Source: Desulfurococcales archaeon (GTDB lineage: Archaea > Thermoproteota > Thermoprotei_A > Sulfolobales > Fervidicoccaceae). Taken from it: 41,035 nt of DNA. This document shows, one piece after another, positions 35,843-39,341 of this stretch (within the stretch, counting starts at the first letter, position 1; each line of letters begins with the position of its first letter). The position numbers and the translations under genes were made by a program. The DNA lies in contig JALTXS010000138.1 in NCBI GenBank assembly GCA_027048265.1, positions 1 through 41,035 of the forward strand, read 5' to 3'. A model generated the notes under the pieces. The model ran no database searches, was not told the origin of the DNA, and saw only the letters and a program-made list of their open reading frames with translations.

Positions 35843-38359
35843 CTAGTCACCTCCTTCCCCGAACACCATTGTGGGGAACCCTCTGCCCCTGAGGTCCTCT
35901 TCTAGGTCTATACCTATGTAGAGTCCCTTGGTCCACATCTTGTAAAGGTCCTGATAGTGGGGGCTAAGGGGGTTGGACGACTGGCCCCCGGGAAGTGAAA
36001 GTAGTATTAGGTTGTCAGATAGGGGGCTGATGATTTCGACGCTGGGCCCGACCTCCACAGGGGCTCCTTCTAGCTCGTTTAACCTGGAGGGGGGAGCCAC
36101 TTTTACCGTGAAGGGACCTCCTACGGCTGGTTCCTTATCGTAGCCCAGGGGGGCGACCGGGTTTCTTATGTTGTAGTAGCGGAAGGACTCTACCCCCAGT
36201 ATTATGGGAGAATTGTATTCTTCGTAGAAGGCCGTGACGAGCGACCAGGCCTTCCTGATAGACTCTAGGGCAACCTGGCGCACGTCTCTACCCAGTAGCC
36301 TGTGGGGCCAGTCCTCTCCTTTAAGGTAGGCGTCCAGTAGTTCCTCCATCATTTCCACCTTGAAAAAATACTTGTCAGCGCTCTCGCCATAAATGAGGCT
36401 CCAAAGCTCATCGTGGAATATCATTGCAGATGCCAGGGCTAGACGGGCCCTTGGCGAGTTGGGCTTCATCAGGGGGTTTTCAGAAAACTCCCTGAGAAGA
36501 CCCAAGGGCTCTGCTAGGTCCTTCGGGACCTCTTCGCCAACCAAACGCAACATGTACATTATCACAGTTTTCAGGCCCAGGTCCACTATGTCTGTCTGTA
36601 TTGACTTGGAGTCGGTGACACTAATGGTGCCGTCCCTGGAGAGCTCCTCTAGCATCTCGTAGATACGCTGGGTCCTGAACCGGTCATGATAACTCCACCC
36701 GAGCGATGCTAGGCACTCTCCCTCCCAGGGCTTGCTATTAGCCGTTGCTATGTATGGTATGTCGCCCTCTGGTCCTGAGAGTATCAGTGGGAGTTGGCTG
36801 AAAGGTATGAAGCCCCTCCACTCTCCCTCCCCCCTGCTCCCATTGTAGGGGAGGAAGCCCGTGTTCGCCAACTCTGCTCCGTTGGCGAAGCGTATCACTG
36901 TTATGTTGGTCCTGTTGGGATAGGCTCCGTTGGGACTGTATGCAATGTTACCCTCCCTGTCCGCTATTACTAAGTTCTGCACAGGCGCCCTGAAGTAAAG
37001 AGCCTGTGCTCTCAAGGCCTCCTCTACAGATGAGACCCTGTTCAGGGCCCAGATGAAGGCGACCTCAAGGCTAGGAAGGGAACCGGTGAACGCCACCGCA
37101 TAGCGTTCCTCACCCTCACCCAGAAGGGGTCCATGGACAGTTCGCTGTATAACCAGTGTACGTGTCTCCATTTTTCGCGAAAGAGGGTTCCACACTCTCA
37201 GCTCAAGCGGCTCCTCCTCTACCTTGAGTACCCTTCCCTTGTAGAAATAGTGGGTCTCGTTAACCCACTTGTAGAAGTAGAAGTCCGTGAAGTCACTGCC
37301 CACGTTAGTGAACCCCCAGGCTAAGCTGGGTGTCCTGCCTATAATGACCAAAGGGGACCCGGGTATCGCCACACCTGCAGCCGTCCAGCCAGGCGCCCTC
37401 ACTTCCTGTATGAACCATATGGGTGGCGCCTGAAGTGCTAGGTGGGGATCGTTGGCAACCAAAGGCTTTCCCTCAGGACCGAGCTTGGCTGATACTACCC
37501 AGTTGTTCGAGAAACCCTTGGTAGCATATAGGGCGCCATCCTCCAGGGCTTTAGTGGGGTCAGGTATTTCTGCCGGGTCATACATGACACCTGATAGGCT
37601 GAGCTCGCCGCTGATGTTCACGAGCTCGCCGAAAGGGGATGCATCGCTGCAATTAGCGTGAGCAAGGTTCCGCTTCCTCCCCACTATGTCAAGCCACTGT
37701 ATAACCTCTACTCCCTTTCTCTTCACAAGCTTGGCCAGGATGAGGTCATCCCTGTCCCACGCCAGCATGAGTGTGAGTAGCTTGGCGAGGGCTACGCTAT
37801 CCTGGGGCCTCCATGGTAGAGGATCTGTACCCAGTATCCTGTATTCTAGGGGGAGCTTCGCCTCTCCGAGAGCCTTTTCCATGTACATGTTTACGCCATC
37901 TGAGAATGCTAGGAGTATTTTTTCAAGTTCATCAAGGTCAGGGTCTTCCACGATAGCTCTCCAGGCCTCCTCTATCGCCTGTGGGATACCAAGCTTGTTA
38001 ACCAACACATCATTGTCAATACCCGCCTCCCCCACAAGTCCGCTCAGGTTACCAAGAGCTACTCGTCGGTACAGGTCCATCTGGAAAAGCCTCTGACTGG
38101 CCTGGATGTAGCCGAGGGCAAAGGCTGCGGCCTCGGGGGAATCCGCGTACACGTGAGGCACGCCATGCGCGTCCCATACAACAACCGCCCTGCCGTGGGG
38201 GGAGTAAACACGTCCCGTTGGCAGGTCCTTGTCAAACCCTATCCCTCCATAGCCGTTTACAGGGTCAATCATGGGCTGAAGCGAGGGGACCGCGTAGGGC
38301 ACTGCGAGTATCAGTAACAAGAGTACCATTGATGCGAGAAAAGAGGCTCTGGAGGTCAA
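35843..38359 (-). CDS. Penicillin acylase family protein (Ntn hydrolase), secreted
   Basis: Signal peptide; VVWDAHGVPHVYADSPEAAAFALGYIQASQRLFQMDLYRR; G-Ser cleavage/nucleophile KGFSNNWVVSAKLGPEGKPLVANDPHL. Confidence 0.93.
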   Translation of the reverse strand: MTSRASFLASMVLLLLILAVPYAVPSLQPMIDPVNGYGGIGFDKDLPTGRVYSPHGRAVVVWDAHGVPHVYADSPEAAAFALGYIQASQRLFQMDLYRRVALGNLSGLVGEAGIDNDVLVNKLGIPQAIEEAWRAIVEDPDLDELEKILLAFSDGVNMYMEKALGEAKLPLEYRILGTDPLPWRPQDSVALAKLLTLMLAWDRDDLILAKLVKRKGVEVIQWLDIVGRKRNLAHANCSDASPFGELVNISGELSLSGVMYDPAEIPDPTKALEDGALYATKGFSNNWVVSAKLGPEGKPLVANDPHLALQAPPIWFIQEVRAPGWTAAGVAIPGSPLVIIGRTPSLAWGFTNVGSDFTDFYFYKWVNETHYFYKGRVLKVEEEPLELRVWNPLSRKMETRTLVIQRTVHGPLLGEGEERYAVAFTGSLPSLEVAFIWALNRVSSVEEALRAQALYFRAPVQNLVIADREGNIAYSPNGAYPNRTNITVIRFANGAELANTGFLPYNGSRGEGEWRGFIPFSQLPLILSGPEGDIPYIATANSKPWEGECLASLGWSYHDRFRTQRIYEMLEELSRDGTISVTDSKSIQTDIVDLGLKTVIMYMLRLVGEEVPKDLAEPLGLLREFSENPLMKPNSPRARLALASAMIFHDELWSLIYGESADKYFFKVEMMEELLDAYLKGEDWPHRLLGRDVRQVALESIRKAWSLVTAFYEEYNSPIILGVESFRYYNIRNPVAPLGYDKEPAVGGPFTVKVAPPSRLNELEGAPVEVGPSVEIISPLSDNLILLSLPGGQSSNPLSPHYQDLYKMWTKGLYIGIDLEEDLRGRGFPTMVFGEGGD

Positions 38360-38414: not shown

Positions 38415-38486
38415 TGGCTCAGCGGAGTAACTCCCAATCATCCCCCCGGCGCAGGGTCAGCTGTCCCAATGGCCCTCATCATGCCC
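38415..38486 (-). ncRNA. C/D-box sRNA (2'-O-methylation guide)
   Basis: Minus: GGGC-ATGATGA(C)-GGGCCATTGGGACAG-CTGA(D')-CCCTGCGCCGGGGGG-ATGATTG(C')-GGAGTTACTCCG-CTGA(D)-GCC. GGC/GCC closing stem. Intergenic. Guides complement rRNA-like CUGUCCC and GGAGUAACU. Confidence 0.8.
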
Positions 38487-38522: not shown

Positions 38523-39341
38523 TCAGGTATGTAGAAATATCCAGTCGCGTAGCGAGTGCTTCTCTACGTACAACTTTTCCGCGTTCTCTATGATGTTCGA
38601 ATCAAGGCCCGACCTCACTGGTTTAAGCGAGAGGGCCTGGGAGAAGCCATCCACGATTTTATCGAGCATGGAGCCTATGCTGGGAACCCCATACCCGAGG
38701 TTTCTCAGACCAGCGAACTTCTTTTCGAGAACCGGTGGAGGTGGTGTGCCTTTTATCACGTCGTGCCAGTCCTCGTAGACGGCCTCGATCATCAGGGTCC
38801 CGTGCTGTAGGAGTGAGCGGGGGCCTCTCACCTGTGCGCTTCCGCTTACCTTTCTCCCCTCGACAAGTATGTCGCTGGAGCCCTCGTTTAGCAGGCAGAG
38901 CTCCCCTCCCTCGCCAAACCGGGGGGAGGCCTCCATGCGGGTGGTCGAGCTTATCCCCATGTTCTCCAGGGCGATCCTTATGCCCTCCGCTATTAGGGCG
39001 GCCGAGCGCCCCACGGGTTCGCCATATAGAGGGTGTGTAGACGGTAACACTACACTATATGTTATCTCGAGTCCCTCCGCGTGTATCAGCGCCAAGCCCC
39101 CCGTGGGGCGGCGTGCTATCTTCCATCCCCTCTTAGAGACCTCGTTTAGGTTTACACTCTTAGAGATGCTCTGCCCCCGGCCCACTGTCACGCCAGTCGG
39201 TCTCCACGTGTATAGCCTTAATATGGGCTCCTGCCCGGGGCCCATGCCCAGCCAGAGGGCCTCGTCAAGCGCCATGTTGAACTGGGGATCCCGGGGCCCG
39301 TCCACTATTACCCTCAGGATGCCTTTCTCGGACCCGCTCAT
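38523..39341 (-). CDS. lplA: Lipoate--protein ligase, N-terminal (LplA) domain type
   Basis: NMALDEALW, LRLYTWRPTGVTVGRGQ, IARRPTGGLALIHAEGLEITYSVV, KVSGSAQVRGPRSLLQHGTLMI. Confidence 0.9.
   Translation of the reverse strand: MSGSEKGILRVIVDGPRDPQFNMALDEALWLGMGPGQEPILRLYTWRPTGVTVGRGQSISKSVNLNEVSKRGWKIARRPTGGLALIHAEGLEITYSVVLPSTHPLYGEPVGRSAALIAEGIRIALENMGISSTTRMEASPRFGEGGELCLLNEGSSDILVEGRKVSGSAQVRGPRSLLQHGTLMIEAVYEDWHDVIKGTPPPPVLEKKFAGLRNLGYGVPSIGSMLDKIVDGFSQALSLKPVRSGLDSNIIENAEKLYVEKHSLRDWIFLHT

Follow-up and report, generated by a model that had tools for sequence, protein, structure and literature searches.

The short gap between two genes on an archaeal contig raises the question of whether it carries a guide RNA and, if so, which nucleotides of the ribosome this RNA would address. 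The gap lies in the window (the whole stretch of 41,035 nucleotides of DNA analysed here), in which 163 nt separate the stop of a lipoate-protein ligase-like gene (lplA; 38523..39341, minus strand) from the start, at 38359, of a penicillin-acylase-like gene (35843..38359, minus strand). Both are open reading frames whose names are taken from the initial annotation, and their layout bears out its placement of a C/D-box sRNA between them. The complete architecture of such an sRNA occupies the minus strand at 38482-38416, for which the initial annotation gave no strand, and the four boxes and the GGC/GCC flanks described earlier are all present there. Read along the minus strand, box C (AUGAUGA, 38476..38482) agrees exactly with the consensus RUGAUGA and is followed by a D' guide of 15 nt (GGGCCAUUGGGACAG, 38461..38475), the 3' part of which is complementary to CUGUCCC of 23S rRNA with N+5 at the equivalent of E. 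coli C1994. Box D' (CUGA, 38457..38460), a near-consensus box C' (AUGAUUG, 38435..38441), a D guide of 12 nt (GGAGUUACUCCG, 38423..38434), complementary to the helix 69 sequence GGAGUAACUC(U) with N+5 at E. coli G1910, and an exact box D (CUGA, 38419..38422) complete the series, and the full order is GGGC-AUGAUGA-GGGCCAUUGGGACAG-CUGA-CCCUGCGCCGGGGGG-AUGAUUG-GGAGUUACUCCG-CUGA-GCC. This register of box C' is that of the initial annotation; in an alternative register, which is that of the Rfam sR1 alignment, the box reads GGGAUGA (38438..38444, minus strand) and the D guide extends to 15 nt, and the spacer between D' and C' thus measures 11-15 nt. The RNA measures 64 nt between the outer ends of boxes C and D and 67 nt with the GCC of the terminal stem (38416..38482, minus strand), for a class range of about 50-70 nt, and its mature ends probably extend a few nucleotides further on either side. 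The lplA-like stop sits 40 nt ahead of box C, and the acylase-like reading frame begins 57 nt past the sRNA on the same strand.

The initial annotation had suggested looking for a homolog in sister genomes, and a syntenic copy was found on a contig (L001) of a same-genus metagenome-assembled genome, also named 'Desulfurococcales archaeon' (G001), which was reached via its lipA neighbour. The core, which runs from box C through the GC that follows box D, is identical at 65 of its 66 bases, boxes C and D included, and the D' guide is preserved in all 15 positions. The intergenic flanks retain 23 of 41 bases (56%) on the lplA side and 43 of 57 (75%) on the acylase side, significantly less than the core (Fisher p = 1.6e-7), and the flanking genes, at 89% and 85% identity, also remain below it; across the 3.5-kb segment shared by the two contigs, the sRNA core is the 66-bp interval of highest identity. 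The terminal-stem flanks GGC/GCC are replaced by GGU/GCU (one Watson-Crick and two wobble pairs) in the sister contig. The only change within the core turns box D' from CUGA (window position 38460) into AUGA (at about position 7800 of L001). In the AUGAUUG register this change would create an A-U pair with position 6 of box C', at which the window has C opposite U, and in the GGGAUGA register a C-G pair would be lost; a single change of this kind cannot decide between the two registers. Since architecture, synteny and conservation agree, the identification of the locus as a C/D-box sRNA is strongly supported.

The arrangement is also specific within the window. A permissive C-D'-C'-D descriptor, applied to both strands of the 41 kb, matched once, at the sRNA, which is thus the sole such site; the mean number of matches in 300 first-order shuffles of the window was 0.01, an expectation that is somewhat flattering as the descriptor was composed after the site had been seen. 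No Rfam family exceeds its threshold at the locus, the best being sR1 (RF01152; 14.4 bits against a gathering score of 45), with sR3 (RF01133) at 12.2 bits against 41. These two match over the full length, and they and other C/D sRNA models all match on the same strand and far below threshold, as is expected because C/D sRNAs share their boxes and not their guides; the guides of the present sRNA differ from those of sR1 and sR3, and it is therefore a member of neither. Its folding energy is no better than that of shuffled sequences, which is expected of C/D sRNAs and says nothing either way. The proteins needed by such an RNA are encoded in the same genome, where genes for fibrillarin (7e-98) and Nop (8e-77) lie side by side on contig 19 and two genes belong to the L7Ae family.

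The targets of the guides were assessed on the 23S rRNAs of three genomes of the same family (G002, G003 and G004) in place of the organism's own. The window's genome is 61% complete, and neither it nor the sister genome yielded a 23S gene in an Rfam LSU search or with a 601-base domain IV query, the latter run on these two genomes alone and without a positive control. In all three family members helix 69 reads GGCCGGGAGUAACUCUGAC. The initial annotation had given helix 69 as GGGAGUAACUAUGAC, and the three rRNAs have GGGAGUAACUCUGAC instead; the C in the latter lengthens the duplex with the D guide, which therefore comprises 10 Watson-Crick pairs and one G-U pair, contiguous over guide positions 2-12 counted from box D. 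By contiguous pairing as well as by duplex energy, helix 69 is the best site of the D guide in each of the three 23S rRNAs, and the N+5 position, itself in a Watson-Crick pair, falls on the G aligned to E. coli G1910; the assignment of the D guide to this nucleotide is thus supported. About 2% of shuffled D guides pair equally well somewhere in 23S rRNA (the shuffle percentages given here cover 23S only, 16S rows being left aside), and among all 306 13-mers that precede CTGA in the window, six reach the level of the D guide. Taken alone, the match is unremarkable for this reason, and it gains weight because it is set in a conserved C/D sRNA. That the locus encodes an archaeal C/D sRNA whose guide addresses helix 69 is accordingly our main reading, to which we assign a probability of roughly 0.88; under it, helix 69 of the genus itself would be expected to read GGGAGUAACUC. 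As an observation on the rRNA genes themselves, the 23S gene of G002 (L014, reverse strand) contains about 141 nt of extra sequence directly after helix 69 (GGGAGTAACTCTGACTCTCTTAACGGGAG...), flanked by ...CTCTT and AAGGTAGCC and bearing complementary GGGAG/CTCCC close to its two ends, and is probably interrupted there by a small rRNA intron; a similar insertion start (CTCTTAACGGGAGAATCCC) is seen in another genome (G025, L026).

The second guide is a more delicate matter. The partner of the D' guide is CUGUCCC(A/G)G, located 84 nt downstream of the helix 69 target where no intron intervenes; the pairing comprises 7-8 Watson-Crick and 1-2 G-U pairs, begins at position 1 and includes no mismatch, and its N+5 position is the C aligned to E. 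coli C1994. The position claimed by the initial annotation, the bracketed C in CUGU[C]CC, is hence recovered, while the pairing behind it is weak in isolation: between 13 and 21% of shuffled guides match it across 23S rRNA (2% within 150 nt of helix 69), a competing site exists, and by itself the pairing is not significant. Both sites being this good within 150 nt of each other is rare, occurring in 4 of 3000 and 1 of 3000 shuffles (0.03-0.13%). The earlier description of two independent matches therefore holds in that the pair is jointly unlikely, and is better worded as one good match accompanied by a modest one. We favour, with some reserve, an sRNA that guides modification at both helix 69 G1910 and C1994, and in that event the C1994 segment of the genus should read CUGUCCCA or CUGUCCCG. 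The length of the D' guide may have a simple background: without its CAU it becomes GGGCUGGGACAG, the exact 12-nt complement of CUGUCCCAGCCC, which is the sequence at the C1994 segment in G003 and several other members of the order. That three nucleotides were inserted into a guide of 12 nt is only a suggestion, as an equal duplex energy is attained by random 5' halves of the D' guide in 5-27% of trials, the figure varying with the target.

Several other explanations have to be weighed against guidance of both sites. The one that survives best retains the C/D sRNA and its D guide on G1910 as the only part functional in methylation, and treats the D' guide as an orphan, as decayed, or as directed to another target such as GGGUCCCAAAGGGCC. 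It draws on the ease with which shuffled guides equal the C1994 pairing, on the AUGA that stands for box D' in the sister contig, and on GGGUCCCAAAGGGCC itself, which lies at about position 780 of 23S rRNA (E. coli about 1005) and is equal or better in duplex energy (-22.2 to -24.9, compared with about -21 at C1994). Pairing at GGGUCCCAAAGGGCC, however, begins only at position 3 and contains a mismatch, unlike that at C1994; the D' guide is identical in both genomes despite their diverged flanks, and an 84-nt distance between targets is as in many double-guide sRNAs, so that we consider a single working guide possible and on the whole doubtful. Quite improbable, in our estimate, is an extension of the two-target reading in which a genus-specific double guide would pair with helix 69 and with the C1994 strand at the same time, its unusually long D' guide bulging out the 3-nt CAU from an otherwise perfect 12-nt complement, and would be no less a clamp for folding the intersubunit face than a methylation guide.

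The conserved element could also be a leader in the 5' UTR of the acylase mRNA, riboswitch-like or a kink-turn autoregulatory site, and not a trans-acting guide. Its position 57 nt upstream of the acylase frame on the same strand would suit this role, and kink-turns bind L7Ae, which regulates some mRNAs. Four ordered boxes together with an rRNA-complementary guide of correct N+5 geometry are nevertheless unexpected of a leader, the locus matches no Rfam riboswitch, and a helix-69 guide occurs in another candidate sRNA (see below), all of which makes a leader very improbable. A chance arrangement conserved through protein coding or recent common descent is barely credible, even with two genomes of one genus as the only basis for comparison, given the (slightly flattering) descriptor expectation of 0.01 per window, and a core far above both flanks and either flanking gene. 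The two genomes share no reading frame that stays open across the core, and protein coding was rejected on this ground as the cause of its conservation.

The sRNA that guides from this locus, as we read it, can be placed in a mechanism by homology to its class. Through its C/D and C'/D' motifs the RNA would form two kink-turn-like elements to which L7Ae, Nop5 and fibrillarin bind, presumably with L7Ae settling on the kink-turns before Nop5 and fibrillarin join. The resulting RNP would pair with nascent 23S rRNA and direct 2'-O-methylation to the N+5 nucleotides: with the D guide on helix 69, fibrillarin would modify the counterpart of E. coli G1910, and with the D' guide 84 nt downstream, C1994, the yeast Cm2337 equivalent, would be methylated. 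Inspection by eye upstream of the sRNA showed no TATA-like box, no other promoter was recognised either, and a scan for bacterial promoters and terminators, uninformative for archaea, was empty. As no promoter was recognised, the sRNA is most likely made within the lplA-acylase transcript or cut out of it; a TATA-like box is seen at only some 20% of archaeal C/D genes (PMC7994747). Transcription, RNP assembly and methylation are steps beyond sequence and pairing that we infer, and a search of the literature available found no archaeal RiboMeth-seq work.

The distribution of the sRNA appears narrow. A sequence model built from the two copies and run against 199 genomes of the order detected no homolog beyond the genus, the leftover matches being weak (E 0.005 and above), and patterns of the D' guide outside the genus stayed at the control level. 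The D guide followed by CTGA was found in 13 genomes, compared with 7 for the reversed control; most of these matches look coding or random on inspection and were dismissed, and only the two genus copies and one further locus are C/D-like. The latter (L036:1450-1515, on contig 13 of G196, a genome of another family) is a different candidate C/D sRNA with the same helix-69 guide and the same N+5 position, of the form AUGAAGA...CUGA...GAUGAAG-AAGAGUUACUCCC-CUGA, in which boxes and guide overlap as written; this candidate (AGTTACTCCC-CTGA) has no Rfam match. With the guide present in an unrelated sRNA, the repeated targeting of helix 69 gains one more, minor example.

Comparison with known systems points in the same direction. 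One archaeal study covers 489 C/D sRNAs, with 128 for Ignicoccus hospitalis and 61 for Sulfolobus acidocaldarius, and reports helices 68, 69 and 71 as methylation hotspots in hyperthermophilic archaea, with sites dense around A1912 (PMC4644070). With these RNAs the present sRNA shares the ordered boxes C, D', C' and D, two guides with N+5 targets (here predicted) in 23S rRNA, a position between open reading frames or at their margins, two targets close together and the domain IV hotspot (H68-H71) (PMC4644070). It differs from them in its 15-nt D' guide, archaeal guides being usually 10-12 nt (PMC7994747), in its D'-C' spacer and in having no ortholog by sequence outside the genus among the 199 genomes. 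It is therefore a new member, confined to the genus so far, of a class that is known and very numerous, not a new class, and because both predicted sites lie in the published archaeal hotspot region it fits the present picture without changing it. Its contribution is a guide RNA that can be placed with confidence and has probably gone unannotated, from an archaeal lineage not in culture, together with two predicted ribose methylations, one adjacent to the helix 69 loop and one at the yeast Cm2337 site. For the yeast equivalents, we take the 84-nt spacing to set E. coli C1994 at position 2337 and A1913 at 2256 of 25S rRNA. Both Cm2337, guided by snR64, and Am2256, guided by snR63, are real yeast sites (PMC5199042). 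The link to Cm2337 made by the initial annotation thus concerns an existing modification, of which C1994 is the probable equivalent. On that spacing snR64 would correspond to the predicted D' site, and snR63 also addresses helix 69, at the equivalent of A1913, three nucleotides from the predicted G1910; the exact helix 69 position accordingly differs, and the correspondence to snR63 and snR64 is one of sites, with no sequence homology shown.

Two minor observations concern other features of the window. The acylase start codons in the window (38359) and in the sister contig (7815) are not equivalent; the latter has a longer in-frame reading frame from an ATG within the C' box of the sRNA, in a frame that is shifted in the window, and of the two starts the downstream one is probably genuine. 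At 1446-1532 on the minus strand, Rfam identifies a tRNA gene missed by ARAGORN (57.9 bits, E 4e-10), which, with 87 bases for a model of 71 positions, may contain an intron or a long variable arm.
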